In this document: positions 1,245 to 63,400 of the stretch, one piece after another
Position numbering within the stretch: the first letter of the stretch is position 1
How the letters are laid out: every line of letters starts with the position of its first letter
Source of the DNA: Fistulifera solaris
Taxonomy: Eukaryota; Bacillariophyta; Bacillariophyceae; Naviculales; Stauroneidaceae
Length of the DNA: 64,000 bases
NCBI GenBank assembly: GCA_030295235.1
Contig: AP026144.1
Coordinates: 434,001-498,000 of the forward strand
Direction of reading: 5' to 3'
The notes under the pieces: model-generated
Told to the model about the DNA's origin: nothing
The model's input: the letters and a program-made list of their open reading frames with translations, nothing else
The model's database searches: none
Position numbers and translations under genes: made by a program

Positions 1245-1928
1245 TAGACGTGCGCAACCTATCAAGACAAAACATTAGTCGGTGTTCGAGGTCCACCAAC
1301 TATCGGGTCGGCGGGACCCGATAGAAAAGGCGGACAGTCATTAGGAATTCACCACATATCCTGTAGCCTCTAACTGTCAGTTTATTGTTTCGTCTCCTTT
1401 CTTCATAACTGGTCAAGCCTTAAGTACTTGGTCGTATTTGGCTCTTGTGATTGTGACCGTCTATTGAGTAATTTCGTCGTCGGCAATGAGTGTTGTCGCC
1501 ACTTTAATTGTCGCCGATGAGCCATCTAGACACTAACGGACGAGAAAATTCTTTTGTCGTATCTCTCTTGTCGCATTAACAAGTTTTCTTAAAAGCTTCA
1601 CAATTACTTGTCCTGTTCGAATGAGTGGAAAGGAACTAATTTGACGTCGGTCTATGCTCTTCGTTTAGGTCGAGACTGGAATCCGAGCATGGCTCAGTAC
1701 CAGTACGACTTCACCTTGGTTCCTATTAGGTCTTGCAGCGTGCGCGGATGCGTCCTCGCCATCTTCACGTTCTTTTGATCTCCCGTTTTCCTTCTCCACC
1801 TTCACGCGCTGGCTGTCAATCATTTCATTCAAGTTCCAGACCTTCTCATCATTGCGTGGATCAATCATTCACCTCAATATCTTCACAAGTCACAACAAGT
1901 TGCTAACAAGAGCACCTTGTCGCTCACG
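1245..1928. other. Intergenic region
   Basis: No supported gene. A perfect 10-bp stem with 5-nt loop lies at 1300-1324, 56 bp past the preceding stop. The rest is unremarkable 3' and 5' flanking sequence of the two plus-strand genes. Confidence 0.5.
1300..1324. terminator. Perfect stem-loop downstream of the first gene
   Basis: CTATCGGGTC (1300-1309) pairs exactly with GACCCGATAG (1315-1324) around a 5-nt GC-rich loop. The position in the presumed 3' UTR suggests an RNA hairpin. A role in 3'-end formation or stability is inference only. It is a GC-rich stem without a following T run. Confidence 0.4.
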
Positions 1929-7470: not shown

Positions 7471-8142
7471 ATGAATATCTATTTTATGCTTTCGACGCTA
7501 CTCGTCGGATGCCACTGTTTCAGCCCGCATCAGACACGATCATGCTTCCGCAAAAATAATGTGAATACGTTATTTGCGACAACATTCCCCACCATCACAG
7601 AACTGTCTTCGGATCCCTTTATGAAACAGATTTCTCACTCGGAAGCCATTGTATCACGAATCATTGAAAATGAAGCCAGCGAGGAATTACCATCCTTGCT
7701 CAAAGCCCAGCTTTCGCACTCGGATGGCATCCGGGGTTTCTTTGCCACTTACTTGACCCACGAACGCTCTTCGAATAATACCATACCAACAGTTCTGCGA
7801 CAAGCCATGGAGTCGAGCGAAAATCACCAAGATTTAGTCAACTTGTCGTTCATGAATCTAATCATGCCGACAGCGATGGTAACGATGCATCAAGATCCGG
7901 AGCTTTCCCAACAATCGCGTATCACGGCCGAGAGGGGTCTTCTCATTCTGCAAACTCTCAGGGAGATGCTGGTGACGCAAGAACTGGTGGAAAAGGAGTA
8001 TGAAGCGATACTGGCTGCTTTGACAGAAGAAGATCACTCAAATTCATCCAAACGAGACTTCTGGATGCAGTTCTTTGAAAAGTGGGGATACGGAGACGAA
8101 CAACGACAAGATATTACAAATGCGCTGCAACGATTAAGATAA
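7471..8142 (+). CDS. Plastid-targeted conserved hypothetical protein, 223 aa
   Basis: Function not recognised. The ATG at 7471 is chosen because upstream in-frame codons are non-ATG and this start gives a clean hydrophobic signal peptide (MNIYFMLSTLLVGC). It is followed by HCFSPHQTRSC, a Cys-Phe at the expected cleavage point, then a basic stretch. That is the bipartite plastid leader of diatoms (ASAFAP-like, Phe at +1). The mature part is all-helical. It includes acidic helices and a Met-rich LSFMNLIMPTAMVTMHQ segment around residues 125-150. There is no obvious transmembrane helix. The stop lies 39 bp from the stop of the convergent TYW1 gene. Plastid stroma is the inferred location. Confidence 0.7.
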   Translation: MNIYFMLSTLLVGCHCFSPHQTRSCFRKNNVNTLFATTFPTITELSSDPFMKQISHSEAIVSRIIENEASEELPSLLKAQLSHSDGIRGFFATYLTHERSSNNTIPTVLRQAMESSENHQDLVNLSFMNLIMPTAMVTMHQDPELSQQSRITAERGLLILQTLREMLVTQELVEKEYEAILAALTEEDHSNSSKRDFWMQFFEKWGYGDEQRQDITNALQRLR

Positions 8143-8181: not shown

Positions 8182-10428
8182 TCATATAGATACAACCAAA
8201 CCTCGGAACATGAGACTGGCATCTTGAATCTCTTTCGCACCTCCCCTGAGTTCCGTTACTGTGGATCCCGTCCCAATTTCCCGCATTCGCGCCTCCATCA
8301 ATTGAAAAAGGCGCTGTCGTTCCTCTTCGGCAAGTGGCTGACCGGTGTGATCGTGGGTTGGGATACCACGATCGTCATATTGAGTATACTTTGGTTGTTT
8401 CGTGGCCTTGCGGTGACGCGTATCGGTGGGATCAAACCCTTCTTCCTCCGCTCCGAACAGCGCCCACTTTGGGGTCGGTGCCGTGTAGTCTTTGACGTGA
8501 AAGGTAAACGATGGATCTGCCTCATGTCGTGCCGCCAGTTCCTGAAATTTGGGATAATTAATCCAAGTATGCCATTGCCGTTTCCCTTCAGAAGAGATTT
8601 CTAAAAACTGGTCGACGCGAGCTAGCAAGACACTACATGAATGCTTGTGTTCACAGGCCAAATCGTATTGTGGTACAGCACAGTCCGTTTCTCGTATCCG
8701 GTTCAATTCCGCTCGAAGAGTTTTGGCTAGGTCCACAACTTCATGATGCCAAGGACTGTTGGACATGTTCAAATTAGAAGCATCAGATTTGCCGCAAAAA
8801 GTAACTCCTTTAATTTCCACGAGGCTGACATGACCCAAAGCAATCAGTTTCGCGTATCCCGAAACTTCATCCGAATTCCAGCCCTTGACGACCGTCAATC
8901 GAGCCACGGTTCGTTGCCCTTTGTTCTTTAACGAAACCAAAGATTGTTTCAGCCTGTCCCAGGCGTCTTGAAACAAGGGCCGATCAATCGCAATCAGCGA
9001 CTCTTTGGTAGGTGCGTCGACACTAACATACAACTGAGTGATTGGTAATAAGCTTTCGATTGCATGAGGGTGTTGTCCATTGGTGACGAGAAACGTGGAA
9101 ATGTCGCGATGGTGCAATTCGGAAAGAAACTCATTGATACGAGGATACATGATAGGTTCTCCTACTAAACTGAGAGCACAATGTCGTACTGTATGTGCTT
9201 CTTGCCAACGATCCATTTGCACACCCGGAATGCCTTTGGTCACTTTGATCATATTCACATGCGTTTGTACTGCCTGCTCAACAATGAATTGAGGATCATC
9301 TGTTTTCCACCGCCATTCTTTTCCTACTGGATTCTTATGATGTCTCCAGCAAAACACGCACTTATTCGCACACGCCAGCGAAGGAGTTGCTTCCATACAT
9401 TGATAACTAGTAATACCGTAAAAAGTGTGCTTGTAACATCCTCCACGACCGCGCAATTGATGTTTCGTCCATCGACAAAGTTTCACTGCACTGTGTGTCC
9501 CGATCAGTTTGTATCCTTCCTTCTTTAATTGTTCGGCCTGACGAGGCGTCACCATTTCGCGGGGCTCACCATTTCCTTCTTGCTTCTTCTCCGACGCCAT
9601 GGCATTTCCCATATCTTCCAAATCCATGACGGTAGGTTCCTCCGCATCTTCTTCATCTTCTTCGTCGGATTCATAGTCTGCGTGCTCGTCCTCCACCTCG
9701 AACGGCTCCTTCGCGTGCTGATGGCAGCCACCGTTCGGCTTCGCTTCTGCTCCACACGCACAATCCTTTGATGATGTATCAGACTCCTCCTTTTTCCCGA
9801 CTTTAAGTTTTCGTTGCAACTCCATATTCCATTGATGAAACGTTTCTTTCGCATGATCCCCGACAGCGTCGTCTCCCACCCGCAATCGCAACAAACATTT
9901 GGCTCCCAATTTTTGAAAGTGGCGAACACATTCCCGGGCCGGTCGACCCATGGTATCATCGTATTCGGACGATCCCATGCCAAAGATAGCGACTTGTAAT
10001 TTATTTTTCAAAAAAGACTCTGAACGCGCCAATCGTGTTGCACATCTTGTAAGGTTCGTTCCAAAGTATCGGCCGCGAACGGTGGCCATGTTCCGTTCGT
10101 ATGTGTCGGAAGCAATAAAATGAGTACCGGCAAGGGAACTTTGTTGTGTTTGACGTCTCCTTCATCGTCTTTGACGTCTCCTTCATCGTCTTCATTCAAC
10201 AATTCATCCCACCAATCCCATTCCTGTACTGATCCTACTTGTACGACACGATTTGTCACTAAAGCCGAGAGTTCCGAATACAATTGTTCCGCTAATTTCT
10301 CGCACGTTCCCGTGATTGAAGCGTGCACGATGGAAATAGTACCAGGAGATAGAATACGTAATAATTTTGATTCTTCTTTCGTCGGCTGTCTTTGAGAACA
10401 CTCGACTTCCTGAATGGGTACATCGGGA

Positions 10429-14892: not shown

Positions 14893-17800
14893 TTAATGAT
14901 CATTACGTCCTTGTTTCAACTCTTCAGCCTCGGCTGCATGCATGTTAAAAACTTGCTCAAGACTAGTCTGACTGACACCATAATCAGACAGACGAAGATT
15001 CTCCTTTTCAGTTTCAATGCTGGCGAAGAGCTCCGAGATGCGCACGCCTTTCGAGCTGACTTCGTATCTGGCCTTGGTATCCTGGCGTTCACGCAAAACG
15101 TAGCTGGGGTAGTTGCCCTTCACGAAGTCTTCAACTTTCTTCATTCGGAGTTCGACAGTTGCGAAGGCGGCAAGAGTGTCCAAAGCCACACCAAAACCAG
15201 AAGTCGCATCTTTCCAGACTGCATACCCATTGGCGTTTTCCTCGTTGACCATGTCAGCCAAAAAGTTATCCTGGGTCAATGATCGGAGAGCAGATCGCGC
15301 CTCGTCTAAACTGTAAAGAACCTCGTGGGGGTTCTCGATTGATGCGTTCTTCACCTTGGCCAAAGACGTTGCGTAGGCAACATAATCGTCGTCCTCAGTA
15401 GCAACAATCTTTACTTTTAATTCCACCTGGTAGCCTTGTCCGAATTTGTTCTTGAGATGCTGAGCAGAGCCAAGACAACGGAGTTTTCCGTTTGCCATAA
15501 TCCCAATACGAGGGCACAAAGCCTCGCACTCCTCCATGCTATGGGTGGTCAGGATGACGCTTGTACGCTCGTTCGCCGGGACATTCGGTCCGCTAACCAT
15601 GTCACTCACGAGCTGCCAAATTTCTCGTCGAGCAACTGGATCAACACCCGTGGAGCACTCATCAAGGAACACAATCTGAGGCTGCCCAATGGTCGCGCAA
15701 GCAAGACTGAGTCGTCGTTTCATACCGCCACTGTATCCCGCACTTAATCTGTCGCTATCCTTTTCGCTTAAGCCCACCTCCCTCAACTTGGCAGCAGCTG
15801 CTTCTTTTACAAGAGCCTTGGGGACCCCCCTTGATGGAAGCATATAGTTCAACATGCTCGCGACCAGTCAAGTTCGCGAAATGGGCATCGAATTGAGGGC
15901 AGTATCCGATACGGCGGCGGGTTTTTTGCGGTTCTCTGGATACACTAAAGCCCGCCAAGGTTGCATCACCTGATGTGGGAGGAAACTCAGCTGTCAGCAT
16001 GCCCATAGTAGTCGTCTTACCCGCGCCGTTCACGCCTGCCGTGATTTATTAGGGATAGTTTTGAAAGTCAAGGTTAAGAAACGTTTAGGCTGTATCATCA
16101 TAGGCACTTCCAACAAAAAGAGCTTACCCAGAAGTCCAAAGCATTCTCCGGCTGGAATACCAAGAGACATATTGTCAACTGCTTTCTTGCCCGTATCGTA
16201 GGTTTTGGTTAGTTGGCTAATTACAATAAGGTCATCATTTGCTTCACCTCTTAGAACTCGATCTTGTTCCTCAATAACATCCGAATCATCAGGAAGGGTC
16301 TTTCCATCAGCTACATTTCCGCCCCCACAACAACAACGACAGAGCAGAGTTGCAATCACAGTGTTCCAAACTGACATGATTGCCGGATTACTCGACCAAA
16401 TATCGAGACAAATCGCCAACGCTAGATACACCACGGATTGAATGGCAAGAAATAAAACTTCCAGTCCCAAGATAGGCTCACTAAACGCATTGAGGTTTGA
16501 ATCCCCCTCCCAGTATCGAAAGGACTCGATATTGATGACATTGAACAATCCTTTTCCCAAACAAAAATAAGGATTCCAGCGCAAACACCAAGTCACGACG
16601 GACGCAATATCGACCAGCTTAGCATTGGGATCTGTTCGATCTTCACCAATGATCTGCAAAATAAAAATAGCTAAAGGACCACCCATACCTAGGGTCACGA
16701 ATTAAGAAGGTGAGAACTCGACAAGTTTTTTACGCTTGATCAAACAGACGACGAAAGCTTACCAATTAAAAAGCCACTGATCATCAAGAAGATGAAGCAC
16801 AAACTAGGACTTTTAAAGGCAAATGATACGCAGTATGCAAAAGCCGCGCTTGCAGGTCCAAACAAAAGAGCAACGTCAAGACACCGCCGAAAACATTGGC
16901 GGTTCTGGTTGTGAGAACGCCGACATCAAAGGCTAACATAAGTATCACTGTTATCCAAAGGGGGAATTTGATAGTTCATCACATCCCAAAGGAAAGTCGA
17001 TAACCAATACGCGCTAGGTTCAACACCGGCAACGGTCTGAAGATGCTTTGCCTTAGATTCTCGCTCCGCCACAACAAACGAGGCAAAGGCACCGCCAATA
17101 AATGGGAAACTGAGAACCACCAGGAACCATGCATTAAAAGCGTCTTCTGCTTCGCCAAAGCTCTCCTCATTCTTGGTAATTGGCAATGGAGCGATCGTGC
17201 ACTCGACATTAAAGTTGGTATTACCCAGAGCTTCGCGAACAAGTGCTTCATCAGCAAGAGCTTGGTAAAGTGGTGCCACGTGAAGTGCTGTGAAGTTGTA
17301 CTGAATCACGTAGCCAATTCCGCCGAAATCCAGACAATCGTCGGCACTTGTGTAGTTTAGTTCAGGAGCCAAACCAATACAAGCATTGGAAGCGGCCTGT
17401 TCGAAAGAAGACGAGTCCTCGAGAGTACTAAACTGATCCTTGGTAAAGAAAATAGCACCGTATTGAGTCGCTGCACTACCACCAACCCCCATAGAGGTAG
17501 AAAGAGCGCTAGATGATTCGCCTACGTCTTCGACTGCGAGATCAACACCTTCTGCCCCCGCATCATCGATCTGTGAAATGACAGCACTCGACACTGTAAT
17601 TGAACATTTCTCTGATCCAGCAAGCCGTCCTTGACCGCCGCAGAAAAAGTACGATTCGTTCGTTGTTTCGCTCTCTATCTTCTCCTCTGGATAAAAGCAG
17701 CTTCCAGGCTGACAAATAAAGGGATTTTCTGGACTATTGAAGGGAATTGGATTCCTTAGCTCACTGATGTCCATATTGTAGTCATTTAAATCTAGGACAA

Positions 17801-20800
17801 GACTGTCCAAGTTTCGATCCAACGCGACAAACTTAAAAAGCCTGCGGATGAAAAATCAGCTCACATGAAGCAAAGAGTACCTATTCAGCGTAGGAAAGAC
17901 TTACAAAAAGCCAACGAAAACGAACAAACTTGGTAAAGGGTAGTGCAACACCAAGCCTTCTTGTCGCGACGAAAGAATGCAGCCCTCTTCTTCAACAAAG
18001 CCCCTATGTGCCGAAAGAAGAGACCCTCGTTCTCCAAGTCCATTCTGGATCTTGCACTCTTGGTGCCTTCATCAGTTAAAGTTACACCATCCATGTGCTT
18101 CGACGATGCAAACTCCTTCTTTTCTCCAGTTCCTTCGCCTCGAGCAACCAACAAAAATACTTCATCTAGCGTCGTGATACCGACCCCGTAAGATGTCAAC
18201 GATCCCCTTTCTATTTCTTCGTCGAGTGCTTTGAACATTGGCCCGAATTGGGATGCCGCTCCGATGGGCAATTGATATGACAACTCAGAACCGACGTTAG
18301 TCAGAAGATTGGCATCCGAAACATTACTCTCAACAAGGTTCATCAATTTTTCGTCGTGTTCCCCCAAACCGACCAGATCCGGAGTAGAGTTCACCTTGCT
18401 CGATTTCACCTTTTCAATCGTTAGTTGATATCCTACACCAAAAGTCTTCTTGAGGAAAAGTGAACTGCCGGCACAGCGAAGCTGGCCCTCGGCCATGATA
18501 GCAATTCGATCTCCCAAAATGTCTGCTTCGTCCTGTGGAATTGACGGTATTCATTAGTAACATACGACGAGAAGACGATATATATGCACGCTAATGAAGC
18601 TCTTACCATGAAATGTGTTGTCAGAATAATACAGCGGTCACGACGATATTGGCGAATTACGTTCCAAGTGAATCTTCTTGAAAAAGGGTCCTGTAAAAAC
18701 GAAATGATAGGATTAGCGACAAGTAGAATGTCAACAGTGACCGGAGCAGTGTCAAGACTTGCCATTCCACTAGTGGGTTCGTCCAGGAGCACAACTTTAC
18801 TGCCTCCACAAAACGCCATCGCCACACTCAATTTCCTCTTCATACCGCCACTTAGGTTCTTCGAAAGTGTGTTTCTCTTATCAAACAAAGCAACGTCCCG
18901 AATAGCTTGATCAATGTGATTTTCAGCTTCTTCTTTGGTTGATGTGCTGTATAGACCTTTCAACCGCGAGAAAAATTGTACATGCTCTCGAACAGTAAGC
19001 TCAGGAAAAAGACAGTCGTGCTGCAAGCAGATACCGATATCCTGTCGAATGGCCAACATGTCGGAACGAATGTCTTTTCCAGCAATGATAGCATGCCCCG
19101 ATGTAGGTGATAGTGCCCCTGTGAGCATGCTGATAGTGGTGGTTTTTCCAGCACCTACCAAGTCACAATGTTAGAGCTTTCAAAAGTCAAAGAAAGTACG
19201 CGATGAAACGTGCTGTCCAATCTTACCATTGTGTCCAAGTAAGGCTGTGATCTGACCACTGTACATGGTCAAGTTCAGACCGTCGACAGCCACTTTATCG
19301 TCAAACTTCTTCACCAGGTTCTTGATCTCTATACTCTGCCCTTCTACTGACTGACGCTTTAATGCTTCACCGACCGGCTCAAGAGGTACATGCTCGCTAG
19401 CTGCATTCCCGTTGGCCTCTTCGCTTTCATGATGCGCCGACTTCCTACCAGGGCACCAATACGATGATGTGAACGGGAAATACAAGGGTTGTGCCTGTCC
19501 ATAGTCCGGACGGATAACACGGTTCAGATACCATGAGAGGATCCCCCAAATGATAACATCCGCAAACAAAGAGTTTAAGGCTTGACGAAAATTGTAACCC
19601 GACTCCAACTCACTGAAATCGATTGAGTTGCTGGAGATACCGATTCCTAAATCCTCAAGGCGGCCGATCTCTTGCAAGCCGAACGATAAAGCCACGACCG
19701 GGTGCAACCCAACGAGACTCAACACTGAACCACTGCTTGTCGTATAATCGACCGAAATAGAGATGAAGTACCCCGCGAGAAAGAGAAGAACCCCGATAAG
19801 AACCGCCCTCGTTGTCTTTGAAGTAACAGCCGCAAGTCCCATGCAAAAGGTTGTAATAGCTGTAAACGTGTATAACCAGAAAATCCACATGAAGGAATTA
19901 TCCGAGTTCTCGTAGACTTGGTTAGCAACCATCGCTGTCAACGTAGCAGAAATGATGTTGAAAACGAAGAACGACGAGAACCAGGACCACCCGATGTCCG
20001 ACTCAGCAACACTCATCATCTTCATTAGCTCCTTCTGTCGCAACTCCTTCTCCTTGACAATGTAGCTAATCATACTTGACACAGGGTACAGCATACCGAG
20101 CACAATTAGAAGAGGAGCAAAGGCTGGAACCAAGTCATCAGATACCGCAAAAAGGTTGGAAAAAGTACTTGCGAGTATCTACTTACCAGCAATCGCGCCA
20201 TAGAATCCTTCTTCCTCATATTCTCTCGTCGGAAACGGTACATACTGCACACCCGACTTTGAGATTTTGTAGCCTGCTGCTGCTGCACCCGTCTGATCCA
20301 AGATAAAGTCTCCCACCAATCGTTGAAAGGTAAGCACTCCATTGTACGCGTACTGTCCTGTGCACGAGTTGCCTTTTCTCTCCTTGCTCGGCAGCTCCAT
20401 CCAACGGAACACAAGGCTCATCGTCCGTCTTCGCAAACGAAGCAAACTTGGTGGTAGTGTCAGGCGTCGTGGCTACCGCAGGACGACCTTCGGCAGTGGG
20501 GTTGTTAAAGTTCGTCGAATTTTGGCGAAGCTGGTAACGATAGTTGTCTGGGTCATTTCCTTCAAACACTATGCCCATTGCTAACTTGGGAAAGCCAGTT
20601 TTGCCGTATTCGGGCGATTTCACATACTCATCCATAGCCAAGGTACTGTTGAAGAGTTGTATCAACTCAAACGGCACCGGAATCGCTTCCGTGTCGGTCA
20701 AGACAGGGTAACGTCCCAAGATGTAATCTTTCATCAACGACGCTCGCGCAAGGCCACCCTCATCGGTTCCAGAAAGGGCTACAATAGCAAACTCACAATA

Positions 20801-39022: not shown

Positions 39023-39273
39023 AGTACAAGGACTGCTAATTAAGTACCTAATAAGGTAAGTGCGTGCGCCGTCCGCTCGCCAGAAAGTGCGGACCCTGAT
39101 TCGTAATACGGAATTCAGTACCGATGTTTGGTGCAACGGTTCTGAAGATAATATATAGAAAACGACTTGAAACTGTCTTGCACCAGCGATATATTTCGCT
39201 CATCACGCACCTGACCATGATATTCATATTGACGACGGCAACATGAAATGATTTATTCGAAAGTCTCACCCCG

Positions 39274-42200
39274 ATGATCTCGTCAATCTGTCTTGAAAAA
39301 GCTTTTGATCGATCCTATGAACATTGTATTGACGAAGCTGCAAGGAAACAGGTGAAAAAGAGGATACAGCGCTTGATTTTGTTTTCTCGATGGAAGGTAG
39401 CCAACTTTCCACAACCTCGCCCGCGGGGTTCGGAGAGATGCAGGAACGACCAAAGTCACCTTTTTCGCCATTGTTGCAAAAAAATAAAAAGAAAGAGACC
39501 AACGCAACAAAAGGGAAGAGACTTTGATGAATTTTCCTTGAACCCTTGTCGACGAGTTTCGATCGTTGTGGCTGTTGGCAATGGAAGCGAATCGATTGAC
39601 GACGAGAACCGAATCTGTATTTTCCCCACCAGAGACGCCGATTCTACCCGAGAGCTAATTGTATTGAATCCCAAAGCATATGGAAGGCTCATTCCACCGC
39701 GAACTAGTCAACAAGACGTTGCGAAAATGGTGTCTCAGATAGCTCCGCTCGCGCAAGAAGACTGGACTCGGACATTTCGATTTCAACATGTCGTTTGGCC
39801 TCCGAAGCATACTCACCAGAAAGAGTACTCCGTTATTCATCGAGACTTTCCTGATAATACTCTGATGAATCTCTGTTCGGGTGCAGCAAACGATATTCTT
39901 GCCAAAGATTCGACTATCAATCGAATTTTTGTGGCCCTGGGCAATTCGGGCAAAACAGAAATTCTCTTCGGCAGCATCGCGACCCAGAAACCTTCCGTCG
40001 CGGAAGTCTTTGCCCAGTCTGTTCAAGATCTCAGCCGCGAGGAGCTATTGCGTCGATATGGATTGCTGGGATGGACCGTACAATCTATTCTAGACCGCCT
40101 ACCCGAGGACAAAACTGCTGTGTGTACACTCTCCGTATTGGAAGTTTCGGACGAGAACTCTTTGTTTGATCTGCTGGCCACCCGCCCGTTCACTCAAGAT
40201 GCATCAAAGCGAGTTACGATACGCTATAATAATGGGTCGAATCATGCATGGTCAAAGGACGAAGTACAAGCACGTGGTACAGGGACGGTGGGCGCCGTTG
40301 TTGAAGGTCTTTCCAACCAGCCGATCGATTCGTTGAAAGGTCTCGCACACAGTATGAGAAGAGCGTTTGCGGCAGCTCTACACGAAAAACGGAAGACATC
40401 ACGCGGAACATTGGTAATATCCGTTCGTGTGTGGCAACAAGCGGAGAAATCACAATTTCAACAAAAGTTTGAAAAGAATACTGCAATTCAATTCGTGGAC
40501 TTGGGTGTGGTGGAGCACGATGAAATGCCTGCTTATTTTAAACGTAACGCTGCCATTCGAAAATCAGAATCAGTTCTTGGAAGCGTCTTGAGGGGAGCTC
40601 TCCTCAGAGAGGCAGGTCATGATGCGGTGATTCCCTACAGAGACTCGGCTTTGACTAAAGTTCTACAAAGGTCCATGGATCATCCTGATTCCCGAACAAT
40701 TGTAATGGCATGCTTATCGCCTGGCATTGAAGCGCATGATGAAAGTATGCTGACCCTAAGGTATATTAGCCGTTTAACGAGCAAACCAGGCCAAGAAGTG
40801 CAATCGACGTCTTTTGACAGCATAATGCAAGCTTCTACAACAGGAGGTTCACCAAGTTCGTCAGCTCCGCTTAACTTGTCAGAGCTTACAAAAGAAGACG
40901 GCTCCTCCGCATACTTGCTACAAAATTTGCTTTCAGACCCGCGACAACGACTAGCTAAATTGGCCATCCCTGGAAAAGTCAGTAAAGATGTTGCTAGGTT
41001 CTCTTTTGAAGTTAGCGATGACGAGCCAACTCCATACAAAGGACCTTCGTCACCAAAAATTAATCAAGCTGTTCAAGAAACACGAGTTACATCGGAGGAT
41101 CCCAAGTCGATTTCAGAAGAACAACGCGCTCCACCAGGAAAGCATATATCAAGTCTAACATCGCAGAAATCCGATCTATCCTCGACTGAAACACCCTCGA
41201 AGATAACTACTCCATTGGCTCAGAATATGAACAAGGCTGACTCCGGAGCGTCACCACCATCTTTTCAATCTTTGCGACCAAGTCCTCCTGGCTGTCATTT
41301 GAAAGAGAGACCTGGTGGGGTCTTTTCGAAAACGCAACTTTCGATGGGAGCCTCCGGCGACAGCGAAGAACCAATCACTCCGCATACGGTGGAATTAACA
41401 ACGCTTCATCAAGTCAATGTTTCGCCTATTCTTCCTAGAACGTCAAAGGATGTTAACTTATCTGGTGCAGGTCCATTAGAGCCGACAAGCATTGGTAACT
41501 CTGATCTGTCGTCCATTTCGCGGAACATGAGCGAGGATCTCAAACGATTGACAAAGGATACAAAGAAGGAGCAAAGCCAGACACCAAATTCAGCTAAAAC
41601 TCACTTTCAAGCAAAGCTTTCTCCCAAATTCGACTCGTCTGTCGTTCAAAAGAGCAAGAAAGCCATGAATTTTTTTACGCAAAACTTGGAGCGAGGACGA
41701 TACTAGAGCAAGTCCAAGCTTGAAATTTATTAATAGGAATCGAGACAATTCTAGAGACCGCCTTGTAATAAAAGCAGAAACATCTGTTGACCAAGCTATG
41801 AATGATCTTTCATTCGAGCTTCTTAGGCGTTCAAAGGCACTCGACAATCAGAAAATACTAAGTAATTCATTCAAGTCCGAGCTTGATGATCTTTCTATGG
41901 AACTTTTTGGCAAACAGACAGTCATGGAATCAGATAAGGAGCCTTTTGATGAAGTTTCCGATCTTTCTGGAAGGCGAGTTAAGCATGCTATGGATCTTTC
42001 GACTCCTCGCCATCTTGCTCCATCGTTGTCAGAATCACTCAATTCAAAAAGCTTGCAAGCATCCATCTCAAATTCTGCTTCATTGAAGAGAACTGCGTCT
42101 GCTGTTGAAGGATCCGTTGCCAGTGACTTGGATTCGCTTCAAAGTGCTATGGAACACGTCCGTTTAAGTCAAAACAGTCTCAGACACGCTAATAATTCTG

Positions 42201-43688
42201 CACGAAATAGCGAAAATAATCGTTACAAGTCCGAGTTGTCAAGTAGTCGACGCATCGCTATCCAGCGCGGATTGTCAAATGGAGATGCCGATTCTGTCGA
42301 TCACCATCATAATCAAGAAACAGAAGATAGAGAGAAAGAAATTAAGCACCTTCGTGATCAGCTGGAAAGAGCACTTGCAGAGAAGAGTGAAGTGGTAAAA
42401 ATAGCTGAAGAAGCTATTATGACGCAGGCTGAACTGGAAGAACGTGTGCTAGAGCTGGAACGTCAAAATTCTAGGCAAACAAATATTACTAGCTCGCTTC
42501 AGTCGGAAACGAATTTCATAAGGAATCATCAGCAAGAAAATGAAAGCAAAGATTACCAAAATGAAGTCAGCGGCATTGACGCGAAGCTTGTGACTCTTCA
42601 GCACCGACTGATGCATTCAGAACGAGAAAGAAAAACGCTTGGAGATAGAGGTCATCGATAGGCAGCGAGAATATGTACAACTGATATCAAAATTTGACGG
42701 TTCACTTGACAGAGAAGACGTCCCAATTAGTGTCCAAGAGGACGACCTACGCCGACTGCTTATATCCAAAGATTCGACTATTGTGGGTCTTACCGAGGAC
42801 AAGGAGAAGCTCACACGTGAGATGTCGAAACTGATGGATGAAAGAAGTGCGCTCATTGATCAGCTTGAAGAATTAGAGAAAGAATTATCCTTCGTTAAGA
42901 CAGAAAGGGATGATATGGCGACAAGAATGAATGTAGCACTAGAATCACAAGACTCTTTGATTCAGGAACTGGAGGAAACAAGATTTGAGCTTGATCGTCG
43001 CTTGACTGATGTCCAGGAACTTTCTTCCAGCATTAAAAAGTTACTGCGTGAGAAAGAAGAGTCTGATGCTTTGAACGAACGTATGGAGGAAGCTTTAAGC
43101 AGCTTTGAGAGCGAAACGAGGTTCCGGCTGGATAAAGTCTTGGATGATCGTCGCGAGGCTAAGTCCTTACTTGAAAACACTCTGAGAGACAACGCAAAAC
43201 TGGTGGAAACTATCAAAAGTCTTCGTGAGTCTCTCGAATCTGCGAGACAAGAAAGTGAAGAAGAGAGGCTTCGTTACCACGAGGAGGGAACAGCAATGGA
43301 AAATTTGGAACGTGAAAACTTGCTGCTTCGAGAACAAAACCGTGAGATGAGGAGCGCCCTTGAACAAAACGATGGACGATCTCGTAGCTTTGACGTACCT
43401 AACAGTGCAAGCTCCCACGACATAAGATCTACCAGTGGGCGTGACGGTGGAAGTCAGCTACGTCATGTTGGTTCAAGAACAAAATTTGATCCATCAAGAA
43501 TCTTGTCTCCAGCGAGCACATCGTCCATCCGTGCTGAGGATGTTGCCGCTTTCATGTCTTTAACTGCTAAAGCATCTCTGGACGAGAAGATTTTGCTTGC
43601 TTCGATTGGCGATGCCAAAGATGCTGAGATAGAGGCGCTTCGTCTCAGAATTCGTCTCCTTGAGAGAAGAAAGGCTGAGTATCAATAG
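39274..43688 (+). CDS. Kinesin-like protein with degenerate motor, long coiled-coil (two frame breaks)
   Basis: The kinesin-fold assignment rests on the end of the motor: VIPYRDSALTKVLQRSM, then TIVMACLSPG and a LTLRYISRL block (about residues 450-510). These match kinesin VPYRDSKLTRLLQDSL...STLRYA. The nucleotide-binding motifs are all altered. The P-loop reads VALGNSGKTEILFG (kinesin GQTGSGKTYTM) near residue 230. Switch I reads KTSRGTLVIS instead of NxxSSRSH. Switch II reads FVDLGVVEHDE instead of DLAGSE. A low-complexity Ser-rich region (about 510-830) and coiled coil (about 1000-1400) follow. The frame breaks at the T7 run 41670-41676 and the A5 run 42631-42635. Removing one base at each keeps the coiled-coil register and gives about 1470 aa. 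The ATG at 39274 is used; the first 100 residues are unlike kinesins. Probably not an active ATPase. Confidence 0.8.
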
Positions 43689-44823
43689 CATTTCTCAAAT
43701 CGCACGGTGGAGTAGACAAATCTGAATGTCGTTGTAACATATAAATGAGGTGTAACAGAGGTATGATTTTGTTGAAATAGCTAGCATGACGATTCAACGC
43801 ATTGTCTCTTAGTTCGTTTTCAAATTTAAACCCAAGCGGGTCTCGTTGTATAAAAAAGGTCTACGCTACTGGTATAAACCTTCTCTTTCGTTCAAAGAGA
43901 TTATTTGAAACGGTTTTAAAGGTGTAGTCCAATTGAAACTTGAAACTCCTGACTCCAGGCTCGCCTCGAAAGCATTGATCTTGCTAGAGTTTAGTATGTA
44001 GTTCGTTTGTTTTCATGTTCACGATGCCGTTGTTCCACGTAATACGTGCTTAGAAGGCTAGGAGGATACCGATACTGGACGTAACTGTTGACACGACGAA
44101 GAACGAATGGATGATGGTCTGATTGTCATTTTTCTGAAATCATTTTAGCTGTCCAATGTACCGTTGCCGAAGGACATGTTCTTTACAGGGCAGTCTGCGA
44201 CTTTTACTGCAATGTCTTCAACATCGTGGATTTGTATAGCTATTGATGTATAAGAATGGATCAATTTTTGGATCTTCTTCAACCATTACCGGTACCGGGA
44301 ACGGCGTTAAAATTCTGCCTCGTCGTAGACGCTACGTAGAATTTTGTACTGGGAGGCAGAATTTTAACGTCCTTACCCGGTAATGCAGTAGCAAGTAGCA
44401 ACCATTCCATTCGCCTCGCAGCTCGCTGATTCCAAACAACCAAATACGGAGTAATACCAAACTCCAAAAAATACGAAAGAACAAAATCTGAAAGCGTATG
44501 CACTGCAACTTAGCTCATTTACTTTCAAAGCTATATTCAAAATTCTTTATAGCATTTCCAAGTACGTTTCTCAGTTCTTTCCTTTCTCTGGGGCAAAAGC
44601 AAAGTCGTTTTACTACTGAAAAGACTTCTCCCAAAGGAATAGCGAATGCTCCGAACAGAAGGCCGGTGGCCAGTGCTGCTGTCGTCTGTCGTCTTCGTTC
44701 CGCAGCTGCAGAAGAATTCTTGAGCGCTCGACCGAGGTGACAGCTGCCCGTTGCCCGCGTGTCAAAGCAATCTGGCATCTTTCCAAATGATGCAAAAGAA
44801 AAGGGCTTTATAATATACCAACA
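43689..44823. other. 1.1-kb intergenic region with a fold-back element
   Basis: No gene supported. It contains the 100-bp inverted-repeat element at 44285-44384 and an AATACGGAGTAAT motif at about 44444. A TTTATAATAT string at about 44808-44817 is near the next ATG. Confidence 0.5.
44285..44384. repeat. 100-bp fold-back (MITE-like) element
   Basis: The ends ATTACCGG (44285-44292) and CCGGTAAT (44377-44384) are exact inverted copies. An inner arm of about 18 bp (GCGTTAAAATTCTGCCTC near 44304-44321) is repeated inverted at about 44352-44369. The arms enclose some 30 bp. The structure could form a long hairpin. No clear target-site duplication flanks it, so a transposon origin is unproved. Confidence 0.75.
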
Positions 44824-46738: not shown

Positions 46739-49700
46739 ATGCGCTGGACGGCAGTCGTATTACTCGTCACAACAGCATTCGCGGACGAACGCACATTACT
46801 CCGCGAATTGTTCGACAACACCGGCGGTCCCTCGTGGTCCGACAATTACGGCTGGTCCGAGAATCTCAACAATCTGTGCGAATGGACGGGCGTTACGTGT
46901 GCGAGTGAAATGTCTCCCGAATCCGTCGTGGGCATTCCGGCCGACAGCGTGGTGGGCATCGAGTTGCCCCGCAACTTTTTGTCGGGACGCATTCCCAGCA
47001 CCTTCTGGACGTTGCCCTATCTTATCTTTGTCGATGTTTCCTTCAATGCGGGTCTAGAAGTCAATTTAGAAGGTGTCGCGAATGCTAAATTGGAGTGGTT
47101 GAGCTTCGATGAAACAGCGACGCGCAGTGTGGAAGGAATTTCCGGACTCGCGAGTACATTGACGAGTCTGCACATGTCCGGTATTCCCCTCGAAGGGGAA
47201 TTTCCTACCGAAGTCTTGCAATTGACGGCCCTGGAGTATCTCTTCATGTCTTCTGCGGGAATTAGTGGGACTATTCCCGCTGAAATTGCACAATTGTCGC
47301 AGTTGGTGGAATTGGATTTGTCGGAAAACGCCTTGACCGGAGCCATCCCCAACGCGGTGACACTCCTCTTCAATCTCGAACTCTTGTCGCTTCGCAGCAA
47401 TCGTTTGAGTGAAAATTTGAGTTATTTGAATTTTGATGATCTGGCACAACTGAAATTCCTTTACCTCAATGGAAATCAGTTGACGGGTTCGATTCCGTCC
47501 TTCAGCTCGCAACAAAATATCGAAGAGATTCGTTTGAATAAGAATGCATTTTCGGGGGCCATTCCGGAAAGCTTTATGGTTTCGGCGGTCAGCAACGAAA
47601 ATATGACGATCGTGGTGGATTTGTCGGACAACATGCTGGATACTATTCCGGAATCACTCGATAATTTGGAGCATCTCGTTCTCGACCTTCGTCTGGCCGA
47701 CAATCACTTCACGGTTCTACCCACCAATCTTTGTGACAATGTGAACTGGCCGGGTGTCGCTGAATTTCATTGCAGCGGCATTGTTTGCCCGGCTCAAACG
47801 TATGCGCCGCAGGGACGTGCGACGGCCGCCAATGAGTGTACGCCGTGCCAGACCGGCAATTATCTCGGTGCTGTCGTTTGTCTGGTACAAGATGAATACA
47901 GTGTTTTGGAGCAGCTTTTCTTAAATACGGACGGTGAAGCGTCATGGAAAGTCAAGTGGACTCTGACGGACAGGAATTATTGTGCTTGGAAGGGTGTACA
48001 CTGTGACGCTCAAGGTCACGTCACCCGCATTTCTGTTCCCAACAATGGTCTCAAGGGAGCCGTCCCCGAAACGATCTTCAATTTGCCAAACCTCATTGAC
48101 CTGGATTTGAGTCGCAATGATATCACGGTTCCCTTTGACCGCATCGCTGATGCAAAAAGTCTGGCCTCTCTTAACATTGCATTCACGCTCACTGGCGACT
48201 TTGCGCCTCTTACCAGCCCTCAACAAGGAAGGGCCGCTGCAACGTTTCTATGCGGACGGAATTCCGATCAGTGGCACGCTACCCAGCGAAATCTGCGCCA
48301 TTCGCACACTGAAGACGCTTTCGCTTTCGGACTGCAAGTTGATCGGTGAAATTCCTACTGAGATTGGTAATCTAGGTCGACTCGAGGAATTGTATTTACA
48401 AGGAAATGAACTGAGAGGGACTATGCCGTCGCAGATCGGTCAGCTTCAAAATTTGAAGGCTTTTTCAGCGGCCAAGAATCAAATGACTGGCACTCTCCCA
48501 TCGCAGCTGTTACGCATGCCTAATCTGGAAGCATTATCGCTTGCCAGCCAGAAAGGCAAAGGATTTTCGGGTCCCATCCCGTCATTTGAGGCCAGCTCCA
48601 AGTTGACTTCTGTTTTCCTTAACGACAATGCATTCACCGGACAAGTTCCCGAAACGCTCTTGCGAATGGCCGATTTGGATGCTAGCCTTACCGTACAGTT
48701 GTCCAACAACAACATCAATGGAACAGTACCCGGTGCTCTGGCCAAATTCTCAGCCCTCAATTTGTACGTCGAAGGAAACTCGATCACTTATATTGATTCT
48801 CGTCTTTGCGGTCTTGATAACTGGATGAGCGGTTCCGTAGGAAAATACGGATGTGCCGCTATCCTTTGCCCTGCCGCAACTCAGGGTGGGCGCCAGATTT
48901 ATGAAGACGAGCCTTGTGAACCTTGCACTGCTGAAGCTGGATCGTTGCTCGGACAGAAATCCTGTGGAGACGGATCAGAGAGTCCAGCCTTTTCCGGTTC
49001 AGAGCAAGAGATTTTGGAACTCCTGTACAAACAGACTGGTGGTGTAGGATGGCATAACCAGGATCTTTGGCTTAGTGAAGAATCCGTTTGTCAGTGGCAC
49101 GGTGTGGGGTGCAATGCGAATGGGCAGGTCACATCACTTACGCTTGGTGCGAACCAACTGATTGGAAATTTCCCCACCGAAATTTATCAGCTACCCGCTC
49201 TGCAACGGCTGGTTATTTTTTCCAACAAAATCAACTTTAGCTTTGAGGGGATCAAGAATGCTGCGAACTTGAAAGTTCTAGTCCTCGATTCTACAGGACT
49301 TACTTCGCTTCGCGGTGTTGGTAACGCTCCAGCGCTTGAGGTACGCGCTGTCTGCCTTTCTAGGTTGACGCTGTTCAAATATTCGCTCACTTTTGTTTTT
49401 CAGGGTCTCAATGTACGTTTCAACAAATTGACGGGAGAAATTCCCCAAGATCTTTCTCGACTCGAATCTCTTAAGTCATTAGACATCTCCGATAATCAAT
49501 TATCGGAAGGCATTCCTGCTTGGATGGGCTCCATGAAGGCACTGGCATCGTTTAAGGCTTCTAACAACAAATTCTCAGGAGAGTTGTACGATTTTGCTGA
49601 CATGCCTCGTTTGACCTACGTCGACTTATCGAACAACGGCTTAACCGGTACCATCCCCTCAACCATACTTATGAATGCTGACCCAAGCAAGAAGATCTTT

Positions 49701-50057
49701 TTGTCATTGTCAAATAACCGCCTTTCGGGTGAAATCCCGAGTAATTTGGCTGCCCTTCCCAGGTTAGATTTGAACGTAGCCAACAACGAAATTACCAGTA
49801 TTGGAGATGGATTATGCACCATGTCATCCTGGAACGAGATGCAAGTGTCCTATTATGGATGCGATGGCATTGCTTGCCCTATTGGAACATCGAGTGCCGC
49901 AGGCCGTCAAACAGCCGAGGACCGACCATGTTCGCCATGCTCTAAAGCCCAGTTTATGGGCAGCACGGTCTGTGCCACCAGCGACGCATTTAGCTCAAGG
50001 TCCGTAGTAGGGCTGCTCTTTGCAACATTTGTTGGATTGATAGCTCTCATCGCGTAG
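46739..50057 (+). CDS. Secreted triple-module leucine-rich repeat protein (one intron, one frame break)
   Basis: Extracellular LRR protein of the plant-RLK type but without a kinase. A signal peptide (MRWTAVVLLVTTAFA) is followed by three similar modules at about residues 15-390, 390-720 and 720-1060. Each has an N-cap (LLxxLFxxTGG..W...CxWxGVxC) and a run of plant-type LRRs (LxxLxLSxNxLxGxIPxx). Each ends in a Cys-rich cap with a CPAxT...GR...CxxC pattern. The C-terminus is a 17-residue hydrophobic stretch (SVVGLLFATFVGLIALIA) with no cytosolic tail, suggesting a GPI signal or tail anchor. The intron is 49341-49403 (GTACGC...TTTCAG, 63 bp). It has no in-frame stop, so retention would add 21 residues. 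The frame breaks near the G3 run 48231-48233; removing one base gives 1084 aa. Candidate adhesion or recognition protein. Confidence 0.85.
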
Positions 50058-57471: not shown

Positions 57472-60400
57472 TTAGCTGTCGAAATGACCTTCCTTGAGCT
57501 TTTCTGCTTCGGCTGCATGAGTGTTAAAGACTTGCTCCAAGCTGGTTTGGCTGACACCGTAATCAGCTAGGCGCAAAATATCCTTGTTTTCTTCAATGCA
57601 TGCGAAAATGTTCGAGATACGGATACCGTCCGATTTTACTTCATATCGCATCTTCATGTCCTGACGCTCACGTAGAATCGAACCGGGAAAATGATCGTTC
57701 ATAAAGCTTTGCAGCGATAGGATTCGAAGCTCATTGGTCGAAAAGGCAGCGAGGGATTCCAGCGAAACGCCGCCCGCAGAGGTCGCATCTTTCCAAACTG
57801 GATAACCGTATGGGTCGGTATCGTTCAACAATCCAGAAATGCTCTCATCTCCTGTTAGGTTGCGGAGCCTCTCAACACTTTCTTCGAGATTCAGTTGACA
57901 AGATTCGCCGTCAAACACAAGCTCTGCCTTCTCAGCATCCGTAATTGGTTCTGTATCACTTTTGTCTTTCGACCGACTTTGCAATACTTTTGCGGTGGCA
58001 ATAAAGTCGTCGTCATCACGATCTGCTATGCGTACTTTCATCTCCACTTGATAACCCTGTCCAAACTTATTTTTCAAGTGCTGCGCTGACCCAAGGCAAC
58101 GAAGCCGCCCTGCTGCCATGATGGCGATTCGAGGACACAGTGCCTCACACTCCTCCATGCTATGGGTCGTTAAGATCACACTTGTTCGCTCTTCAGGTGG
58201 TAGGCTTTCAGAATAGACCATATCGCTGATCATCTGCCAGATCTCTCGCCGGGCAACCGGATCGACACCCGTGGAGCACTCATCGAGGAACACAATCTGA
58301 GGCTGCCCGATGGTCGCGCAAGCAAGACTGAGTCGTCGTTTCATACCACCACTGTATCCAGCACTCAACCTGTCGCTATCTTTGTCACTCAAGCCAACCT
58401 CCTGCAACTTGGCGGCAGCTGCTTCTTTTAGAAGAGCTTTGGGGACACCTTTGATGGAAGCGTAAAGTTCAACATGCTCGCGACCAGTCAAGTTGGCGAA
58501 ATGGGCATCGAATTGAGGACAGTATCCGATACGGCGGCGGGTTTTATGCGGTTCTCTAGATACGCTATAGCCAGCCAAAGTAGCATCGCCCGATGTTGGA
58601 GGAAACTCAGCTGTCAGCATGCCCATACAACTGGTCTTTCCTGCACCGTTCACACCTGTGGTTTTCATTGACAACACGAATATGCATGAGTTGAAAGTAA
58701 AAACGATCCATCTACCTTAGACACTTGAAACATCAAATCGTCAGTGAGCAATAAAGTAGCAAATCTTACCTAAAAGTCCGAAGCATTCACCAGCTGGAAT
58801 ACCTAAAGAGATATTGTCAACTGCTTTCTTGCCCGTATCGTAGATCTTGGTTAGCTGGCTAATCACAATAAGGTCATCATTAGCCTGACCTGACAGAACT
58901 CGGTCTTGCTCGTTCAAAACGTCATCGTCGTCGGGAAGAGATATCGTCTCTATGGAATGATTTCTTCTCCTTTGAGCAATAAATTGGAACGTTAATATGT
59001 TGAGAAAGGACTGCCAGACAGATAACACACGGGGATTTGTCGACCACCGATCGAGCTGAATGGCAAGCGACATGTACCCGATTGTCTGGCACCCAAGAAG
59101 TATGATTTCATAGAGCATCACCTGCTTAGTCCACACCGATAGATTGTAGTCGCCTGCTAAGAATGCAAAGAGTTCAATATTGATGCACTTGAAAATCGCG
59201 TTCCCCAAGCAGAACGATGGATTGAACCTTAAAACCCATTGGATAATATTCGCAATGTCAATAAGATTCGGTTTTTCATCAAGAGGATTGATACCCAAAA
59301 GTAGTAGGATGAAACATGCTAAAGGACCGCCCATGCCTATCAAAAATCCTGCCAAAATGACGAACATGTTGCATAAACTGGCCGATGAAAAGCGAAAGTG
59401 ATGCAGTACGTGAATCCAGCGGTAGCAGGACCATAGAGGCACAAAACTACAAGAATTCCGGAGAAGACATCTCGTTGGGAGGTGGTGAGCACGTCGACGT
59501 TGAAAGCAAACATAAGCATGACCGTGATCCACATTGGAATTTGATAGTTCAAAACGTCCCAGAGAAATGTTGACAACCAGTAGGCTATCGGTTTTACTCC
59601 GGCAACTGTCTGTAGATGTTTAGCCTTCGACTCACGCTCAGCGACGATGAAAGAAGCAAACGCGCCCGAGATAAAAGGAAAGCTCAAAACCACAAGAAAC
59701 CAGGCCGAAAACGCATCTTCCGCCTTGCCATACTGTGATTCTTTGCTTGTAATCGGGAGAGGTGCAATCGTACATCTGATTTCAAAATTCGAAGCATCCA
59801 ACGCTTCCCGGACTAGTGCTTCATCCGCCAAAGACTGATAAAGCGGCGCCACGTGTAATGCCGAATAGTTGTACTGAATCACATAGCCGACTCCTTGATA
59901 GTCCTCACAGTTTTCAATACTGGTGTAGTTCCCCGTTCGTGACCGACATACTTCATCAACTGCATTGCTGTAAAAACTGCTTTGAAAATCATCGAGAACG
60001 CTCGTTCGATCATGCGTGAAGAACAATGCACCATATTGAGTGGATCCATAGCTCTCTGAGGTATCATATAAACTGCGAGACGACTGGGATACTGAACTGA
60101 CGTTTGCTCCTTCGGCGCTGGCACCAGCGGCAGCGATTCTCGTGACGACTGATTCCGAATCTTGAATCGTACATTTTCGATTGCCATCAAGGGAGCCTCG
60201 GTATCCACAATAGAAATACGTTTCGCTGTTAGCATCTATTGAAATAATAGGGTCGTCTTCCGGGCGGTAAGTGCAACTTCCTGGCTGACAAGTGAAAGAG
60301 TTGCTTGGAATATTAAATGGAATCGGATTTCTAGGTGATGATGCCACTTTATTGTAGTCGTTGAGATCCAGTATGAGGGGATCCATACTGCGATCAAGAG

Positions 60401-63400
60401 CAACATAGTTGAAAAGGATGAATCCCAAACAAACACAAACGCTAGGGGAGAATAGTTGTGCACAACCACGCTTTTCTGTCCCGACGAAAGAAAGCAGCTC
60501 GTTTCTTGAAAAGCGCCCACATGTGCCTAAAGAAAAGACCCTCTTGCTCTAGGTCCATTCTTGAGCGCGCACTTTTGTTGTCTATTTTTGAAGCAAAATT
60601 CATGTTGCTACCATGTTCTTTTGAATAGGAAGACGTAATTGAACTTTTTCCGGAGTTGTGACGGGCGACGAGAAGAAAAACCTCGTCTAATGTCGTGATA
60701 CTTACACCATACGAGCGAATCAATCCTTTGTCAAGTATCTTGTCCAATCTCTCGAACATAGGAAGAAAGTGGGACGAAGCTCCTATTGGTAATTGAAAAC
60801 TAATTTCGGATCCAACATCGCTGAGTAGAACTGCGGATGGGACGGAAAAAGAAACCACTGTCTTGAGAAATTCTTCTAAAGAATTTTCGCCGTTCTCTGG
60901 TGACAACGGAGGGTCAAATTTTTCATTTTCAGATTCGACGCAACCATCTCCAATTCCATCGTTAGTCGCAGCCCCTTCTTCAGTACTATCGTTCAGTCGT
61001 AAAGCAGTCAGCAAACTCTGTCCCCCAATTTCAAAACAGGTTCTGGACAGCGACCAAGCTGACAGATTCTCTTCGGCGCACCCACGAACATCGTCATCTA
61101 CTTTGTCATTGCTGTAGTGAGCTTCTCCTGCTTCACCTAACTCCTGCTTTCTATCCAGTGCGTCCGTACTTTTCTTGGTAGCGTTCGCTTCGATCGCATT
61201 ATCACTGAATTCTAAAGCATTTATAGTTTTTTCGATTGTTAGCTGGTAGCCAACTCCGTAGGTCTTCTTCAAAAACAATGAGCTCCCCGCACATCGAAGC
61301 TGTCCGTCAGACATGATTGCAATGCGGTCGCCCAAAATGTCTGCTTCGTCCTGGTAAATTAAGCACAACAATGACTCATTAGCCAGCCATAATCAAATGC
61401 CACTATGCAGATGAACCACGAACCTTACCATAAAATGCGTGGTGAGAATGATGCAACGATTTTGCCGATAATGACGAATCACATTCCATGTGAACCTCCT
61501 CGAAAATGGGTCCTGGGTTAATTAGCGAGATTAGAAAAGTTAACAGGAAACGAAAAACGCGACTGGCTTTGCTTACCATTCCGCTTGTCGGTTCATCTAA
61601 CAAAACGACGCTACTGCCCCCACAAAAGGCAATTGCAACACTGAGTTTACGCTTCATACCACCGCTCAAGTTCTGAGAAAGCGTGTTGCTTTTCTCCAAC
61701 AAAGCGACATCTTGAATAGCTTGCGTTATGTCAGCTTCAGCATCCACAAACGACTTGTCTCGGTAGAGACCCTTCAGGCGAGCAAAGAATTGTATGTGCT
61801 CACGGACAGTTAGTTGTGGAAAGAGACAATCATGTTGCAGACAAATACCAATATCTTGACGTATACGCTCCCTGTCATATCTAATGTCTTTGCCACCGAC
61901 GATGGCATATCCTGACGTGGTGCTGTCGCACCCGTTAGCATATTGATTGTTGTCGTCTTTCCGGCTCCTTAATCTTGATGAGAAAAATTGGTAACAGTGG
62001 CAAAATAATCAAGTTCAAAATCTTACCGTTGTGTCCAAGTAACGCAGTTATCTGTCCATTGTACATTGAAAGACTGAGACCATCCACGGCAATCTTATCA
62101 CCAAAAACCTTTCGCAGCGATCGCACCTCAATAGACTTGCCTTCCTGAGCCTGCCTCTTGAGGGTGTCGCTTACGGGTTCCAGGGGTATTGAGCTGTTAT
62201 CGCTGTCATCATCTCCTGGATCCGTTACGGACGAAGTGGAGGGAGTGGTGCGATTTGGAAACCAATATGATAAAGTCATTGGAAACCAGAGCGGCAAAGC
62301 CTGACCATAATCGGGCTCGATGGTGCGATTCAAATACCAAGTCATTACACCCCAGAATATCGAATCGAAAATCAAATATCCAAGTGCATCATTAAACGTA
62401 AACCCAGACTGGTTGTCACTTTGGGCCATAGAATTACTATTGAGACCAAGTCCTCTATCTTCCAATCGACCTATTTCCTGTAGTCCATAAGAGAATGCCG
62501 CCACAGGATGTAAGCTAATCAGCCCGACCCATGTGCCATCATCTCTCGTGTAGTCAATGGGCACTGAGATTGTCAGAAACACGCCAATGAAGAAAGCAAG
62601 TAACCCAAAAAGGACAGCACGCGCTGACTTGGATGAGAAACTAGATATCATCATGGAAAACACAGTCACGGCCAAGAAAGTAAAAGCCCAAAACTGAAAA
62701 AGATAGCGAAACTCTGACGCTTCGTAAAGAACACTCGACATGACTGTCGTGAAGAAGGCAGAAATCATATTCCACAGAATGAAGGTCATGAACCAAGCCC
62801 ATCCAATGTCAGATTCCGAGACACTCATCATTTTCATCAATTCCTTTTGACGCAACTCCTTTTCTCGCACAATGTACCCAATCATGGCGGCAACAGGATA
62901 AAGCATTCCCAAGGTGACTAAAAGCGGGCCCGTTTCTGGGGGTTAATTGTTTAGACGATGATTTTATGCGAAGAAGGATGATTCTGAGTAGTGTTCCAAC
63001 GTGGAATGAGTACTTACCTGCAATCGAAGAGTAGAAACCGGAATCTTCGTATTCTTTGATCGGAAACTGCACGAATCGAACTCCTGCTTCCGCCACTTTG
63101 TATCCTGCATCAGCGGCCCCCGTCTGATTTAAGATAAAATCTCCAACGAGTCTCTGAAATGTCAAAACACCGTTGTAGACATATTGACCCGTACAAGAAA
63201 CTTCCAGCGGACCTTGTCTCGGTGTATTTTCGTCGGGCGTGCAAACACTAAAATCATTGCGAGCGTAATGTCGGAAAAGTCGACTCGTATCCGGTGTCGT
63301 GGAGGTTGCAGGTCGCGCCGCCGCCTCGGGAGCATTGAAATTCGTCGAATTCTGGCGAAGAGCATAATAGTACTTCATTGGGTCATCACCCTCCCAGACG

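Follow-up and report, generated by a model that had tools for sequence, protein, structure and literature searches.

Is a kinesin-like gene of the diatom Fistulifera solaris still a motor, and if its nucleotide site has changed, what could its head be doing instead? The gene lies in a 64,000-nucleotide stretch (C22:434001-498000, contig AP026144.1 of a 51.7-Mb assembly in 61 contigs), which as a whole is referred to here as the window, and a first-pass annotation made from the letters alone had read it as a pseudokinesin with all three nucleotide-binding motifs degenerate. We find that the gene belongs to a diatom family of kinesin-like proteins, apparently undescribed before; no account of it appeared among the titles and abstract openings that searches of open-license PubMed Central (PMC) papers listed. 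Sequence conservation indicates that the ATPase site of the family has been released from its usual constraint, which still holds for most of the L12-alpha5 block of the microtubule face. The explanation that we favor, and consider fairly probable, is that these proteins are pseudokinesins, each with an N-terminal kinesin-fold head, the DPRQR signature, and a long tail, whose heads would bind microtubules independently of nucleotide and serve as a static linker or anchor, or as a passive head. The finding is thus stronger than the earlier annotation as regards a family, and weaker as regards the single sequence.

The head, its nucleotide site, and its diatom relatives

The features of the gene and its head, all on the forward strand, are as follows.

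about 39274..43688, forward strand: whole gene, aligned to the intact 1467-amino-acid relative P0008 (tblastn against the window) and read in three pieces, P0001-P0003
39550..40815, forward strand: kinesin-fold head, residues 20-441 of a structure model of 39493-40992 (also Pfam and fold matches)
39934..39957, forward strand: P-loop equivalent ALGNSGKT (canonical GQTGSGKT), from open reading frame (ORF) translation and family alignment
40396..40410, forward strand: switch I equivalent TSRGT (canonical SSRSH), from ORF translation and family alignment
40498..40515, forward strand: switch II equivalent DLGVVE (canonical DLAGSE), from ORF translation and family alignment
40936..40950, forward strand: DPRQR, the family signature, immediately downstream of the head, from a motif count across the family

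The kinesin identity proposed in the first-pass annotation stands. PF00225, the only Pfam match of the gene, scores 77.4 bits against a cut-off of 29.3 and spans profile positions 99-324 of 327, with the P-loop part outside the match; structure prediction, suggested earlier as a check on which a non-kinesin fold would count against the claim, gave a head that matches the kinesin motor fold in a fold search. The best PDB sequence matches of the head are KIF13B, OSM-3, and KIF1A (E about 4e-9 to 2e-8). Downstream of the motor, Pfam matched no FHA or kinesin-3 associated domain in P0001-P0003 at E values up to 1, and in a tree that holds few kinesin families and in which long branches meet, the family groups separately from the KIF13 rows. 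The same genome contains many ordinary kinesins (53 six-frame matches).

The peptides quoted earlier are all present at their motif positions, within an open frame at 39247-41706 (819 codons stop to stop; ORF scan), and residues are changed at all three motifs, but to call all three degenerate is too strong for this one sequence. In the P-loop either Ala replaces the first Gly, or, as the aligner has it, the Gly is kept and the loop shortened (G-NS-GKT versus GQTGSGKT). The window therefore reads AxxxxGKT instead of GxxxxGK[ST], and ALGNSGKT still matches the Walker A pattern, which is [AG]x4GK[ST]; a P-loop described as lost in this sequence is overstated, and we rejected that description. 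Switch I is altered at the N, first S, last S, and H, with the S-R pair of TSRGT kept, and switch II at the A, G, and S, with the D and E of DLGVVE kept. The strict active-kinesin patterns are not matched at either site: switch I reads KRKTSR against NxxSSR, and switch II has Val for the Gly of DxxGxE. NXXSSR is strictly conserved in a published alignment (PMC5076506).

Relatives were collected by three protein searches, each scoring the best 7,990-7,995 candidates, which gave 3, 38, and 47 matches, 9 of them listed twice. Ten matches were set aside as ordinary kinesins (P0036-P0044 and P0084), leaving at least 69 relatives that, with the window, make 70 family rows; all family counts and negatives below are among the matches listed. 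Controls were 19 ordinary kinesins; from the same genome, 11 of 15 distinct ORFs were kept (four pieces of L010 and L020 were dropped), and all 11 have a P-loop GK[ST], SSR, and DLAGSE. When the P-loop, switch I, and switch II columns are removed, the family including the window is one clade (100/100) against the 19 ordinary kinesins, joined to them by long branches, and eight of the ten set-aside kinesins fall outside it in a tree without the motif columns (P0040 and P0042 were left out uncompared). The signature DPRQR follows the head in 68 of the 70 rows versus 0 of the 10 other kinesin matches; the two rows without it are short records of 579 and 459 amino acids that end inside the head. 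The window has all three family markers, namely DPRQR, a switch I Gly at the last Ser of SSRS, and an Arg or Lys at the Asn position of alpha4.

A species name or label is attached to eight of the 69 (P0024, P0031, P0052, P0054, P0056, P0062, P0065, and P0069), and these eight are all diatoms, both pennate and centric: Seminavis robusta, Pseudo-nitzschia (by its Psemu1 label), three Thalassiosira, Cyclotella cryptica, Conticribra weissflogii, and Skeletonema marinoi. In the tree, P0008 is the partner of the window (100/100; 83% identity over 397 columns); the pair belongs to a 22-row clade (95/94) that includes Seminavis, and Pseudo-nitzschia is in a separate three-row clade.

Across the family the nucleotide site is altered to different degrees. 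Seven rows do not cover the P-loop, and the remaining 63 were classed by pattern, not by column, with gap placement in the P-loop and switch I being the aligner's and uncertain: 29 have GxxxxGK[ST], 2 have AxxxxGK[ST] (the window and P0005), 8 have GxGR, 8 have K[ST] only, and 16 have none of these. Three changes on the tree are needed to account for the P-loop states (GxxxxGK, GxGR, and other). Among switch columns identical in 19/19 controls, the switch I Asn is kept in 13/70, the second Ser in 3/70, and the Arg in 26/70 (with His there in 36/70); the last Ser of SSRS is kept in 0/70 and is Gly in 67/70. The switch II Gly is kept in just 6/70. The switch I Ser and switch II Gly are both kept only in P0008, whose P-loop is GNCSRT, and none of the 69 relatives combines these two with a P-loop GK[ST]; orthologues with canonical motifs, the outcome named earlier as contrary to a pseudokinesin, did not turn up among them. 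Because the window and P0008 are 83% identical and have lost different parts of it, the site appears to be under relaxed constraint. The family thus supports the pseudokinesin reading, and the loss of all three sites in the window copy does not hold as stated. We also note a sub-clade (P0074-P0080 and P0082) in which the P-loop reads GSVGSGRS or GSVGSGRP, with Lys changed to Arg in 8/8 rows.

The microtubule face and possible functions

Two features on the microtubule side of the head are relevant to what it might do.

40558..40560, forward strand: codon in alpha4 for Arg, where kinesins have an invariant Asn (KIF5A N256, Ncd N600), from family alignment and a numbering check
40636..40668, forward strand: L12/alpha5 microtubule-face block YRDSALTKVLQ, from family alignment

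The L12/alpha5 block is well kept, with its Arg, Thr, and Gln each in 70/70 rows, its Leu in 69/70, and an aromatic residue before the Arg in 69/70 (Y 47, F 21, W 1). Alpha4 and the loop preceding it are richer in Arg than the controls, with Arg in 42/55 at a column where 18/19 controls have Glu, and in 67/70 versus 5/19 at a second column. These patterns bear on the reading that the head is a relic of the fold, retained as a protein-protein scaffold with microtubule binding gone. KIF26A offers a precedent, being without motor activity and inhibiting GRB2- and FAK-dependent signaling (PMC10585591), and most members of the family lack the L12 Lys, but the invariance of the L12 Arg and Thr and the added Arg of alpha4 and its loop argue the other way, and we regard a relic of this kind as improbable.

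One pointer to mechanism is the alpha4 Asn of INKSL, which is Asn in 19/19 controls and in the family is Arg (68/70) or Lys (2/70). The numbering of this position assumes that KIF5 chain positions equal residue numbers, and residue 600 was counted from what we take to be the start of the Ncd construct; an Ncd stretch entered by hand falls at corresponding positions when aligned with kinesin-1 and Ncd chains. Chain 1n6m, the N600K form of Ncd (PMC2906495), scores below the other Ncd chains over that stretch. Lys at this site in Ncd and Kar3 blocks microtubule activation of the ATPase and gives tight microtubule binding in the ATP and ADP states alike, and N600K Ncd binds microtubules and does not move them (PMC3000839); N600K is described as an uncoupling mutant (PMC2906495). 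Because the residue that uncouples when it is Lys elsewhere is Arg or Lys in 70/70 family rows, we infer that the head would grip microtubules regardless of nucleotide. With much of the microtubule face kept and parts of the ATPase site lost, family members probably hold microtubules and do not walk on them, and the scaffold or nucleotide-free binding role suggested in the first-pass annotation would draw on conservation and on these published point mutants. Two such heads, connected through the tail in a putative dimer, could link or anchor microtubules statically; alternatively, a single one could serve as a dimer's passive head.

A more specific history can be put forward tentatively. An old diatom family of kinesin heads may have been turned into permanent, nucleotide-insensitive microtubule clamps. 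The alpha4 substitution and the missing switch I Ser, both shared by centrics and pennates, would have come first and decoupled the motor, and the P-loop would then have decayed stepwise through intermediates that survive in living species (GxxxxGK[ST], GxGR, and no lysine).

Several observations weigh against nucleotide-independent clamping. Part of the microtubule face has changed too, since the L12 Lys position (Lys in 10/19 controls) is Thr, Leu, or Ala in 61/70. The Ncd and Kar3 Lys mutants still bind and hydrolyze ATP, KIF5A N256S gave no rigor binding (PMC3000839), and Arg at the alpha4 site goes unmentioned in the passages on these mutants, which concern Lys and Ser (PMC3000839, PMC2906495). 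The window sequence itself retains GKT, S-R, D, and E, and across the family the switch I His is kept in 61/70, the switch II Asp in 63/70, and an acidic residue at the last switch II position in 55/70 (Glu 18, Asp 37). All 29 GxxxxGK[ST] rows are in one 34-row clade, the named members of which are centric diatoms. Nucleotide binding may therefore persist in some or all members, and the proteins could be slow or non-hydrolyzing kinesins that use ATP or ADP as a structural cofactor or switch and do not walk; the P-loop-keeping rows, the ALGNSGKT of the window, and the switch II Asp all favor this. However, the switch I Ser is gone in 67/70, including the P-loop-keeping clade, and GK[ST] is missing from 19 of the 21 P-loop-covering rows in the 22-row clade to which Seminavis and the window belong, P0008 being one of the 19. 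We consider this alternative unlikely, and continue to favor a pseudokinesin that would hold microtubules without regard to nucleotide.

Integrity of the gene and its surroundings

P0008 is intact and aligns over the entire gene, but the window copy is read in several frames with four homopolymer breaks (tblastn of P0008).

39355..39359, forward strand: frame break 1, homopolymer A5, upstream of the motor
39478..39484, forward strand: frame break 2, homopolymer A7, upstream of the motor
41670..41676, forward strand: frame break 3, homopolymer T7, downstream of the motifs
42631..42635, forward strand: frame break 4, homopolymer A5, downstream of the motifs
41669..42661, forward strand: tail, second reading frame (P0002)
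42612..43688, forward strand: tail, continued in a third frame (P0003), with a charged, heptad-like sequence

The earlier statement that all motifs lie before the first break is incorrect, as two of the four breaks are upstream of them; the nucleotide-site motifs are all within one open frame, between breaks 2 and 3. In its P0003 part the tail shares 70% identity with P0008 across 357 alignment columns. Inspected by eye, its charged, heptad-like sequence makes a coiled coil probable.

Four breaks in one gene, with no second copy visible in genome searches, could mean that an ordinary kinesin is decaying into a pseudogene in this strain. Yet all four are in homopolymers of 5-7, other kinesin copies in the assembly also differ by single homopolymer bases (some perhaps true divergence), P0008 is intact at 1467 amino acids and altered at the same places, and altered motifs occur throughout the family. 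The breaks are most likely assembly errors rather than gene decay, and a pseudogene, which we rejected on these grounds, is very improbable. Nor does the missing copy count toward it: neither the head nor its flanks turned up a second time in genome searches, and the matching part of C21, the sister contig, reads N from 498501, so its absence cannot be judged. For the same reason we rejected a hemizygous gene lost from the sister chromosome, as nothing follows from the missing copy.

Fistulifera solaris is an allodiploid diatom, and the contigs of the assembly are paired, with a divergence of about 6-14% among the pieces that were compared. Over window 464-30321, the listed pieces of C21 align at 86-94%; beyond that stretch C21 is N to at least 555000 (at least 56.5 kb), so sister copies there are uncheckable. 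P0008 may be a sister copy or come from another species.

Elsewhere in the window are a UBR4-type ubiquitin ligase piece (1917-6401), a radical SAM protein with a wyosine-forming domain (8182-10089), two ABCA-type transporter gene regions (14893-19305 and 57472-62105; 67-79% DNA identity in matching pieces), and two overlapping leucine-rich-repeat frames (46739-50057), possibly a single gene interrupted by a frame break. At 44287-44383 is an inverted-repeat element of ~95 bases, resembling a miniature inverted-repeat transposable element, both strands of which match tens of genome places at up to 98% identity (at least 79 matches among the best 40 of 413 candidates, counting both strands and the query).

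Comparison with known kinesin-like proteins

Most pseudokinesins known so far occur as single genes, in yeast and animals. A graded loss of the ATPase site in a family spanning centric and pennate diatoms would make it possible to ask in which sequence the parts of a motor are lost, and what role the protein takes up later. KIF26A/B, VAB-8, and Costal-2, whose motif states are degenerate, share with the diatom family a degenerate kinesin head; they are animal proteins, set apart from it here by description only. The heads of Vik1 and Cik1 are C-terminal, whereas the diatom head is N-terminal, its loss is graded, and no Kar3-like partner is known for it, the likeness again being by description only. 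Vik1 and Cik1 are non-catalytic kinesin-14 heads that give Kar3 a foothold, and would resemble the diatom family in having a kinesin-fold head without the requirements of ATP binding or hydrolysis; they have a microtubule binding site (PMC4338441). KIF26A is described as one that "lacks motor activity" (PMC10585591), and Cos2 as one that "may have no motor activity" (PMC2867816). The orphan group pseudoKinesin-21 is likewise made up of pseudokinesins, but is currently unique to fungal taxa, and it and the chromist and protozoan Kinesin-20 are known here by description only (PMC5076506).

Surveys may have missed the diatom family. One large survey excluded its 166 most divergent kinesin-like sequences, with scores under 100 (PMC2867816); the 77.4 bits of the window head come from the current Pfam, a different scoring version, and are only suggestive. 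In Thalassiosira pseudonana, four of 25 kinesins were left unresolved (PMC1434745).

A further parallel is offered by the decoupling mutants Ncd N600K and Kar3 N650K, in which the alpha4 Asn is likewise replaced by a basic residue (Lys in the mutants, Arg or Lys in the family), and this resemblance to a published decoupling mutation makes a direct test possible. Those are single engineered changes in otherwise active, ATP-hydrolyzing motors, whereas in the diatom proteins the ATPase site is altered too; among the sequences compared, DPRQR and the alpha4 Arg occur only in the diatom family.
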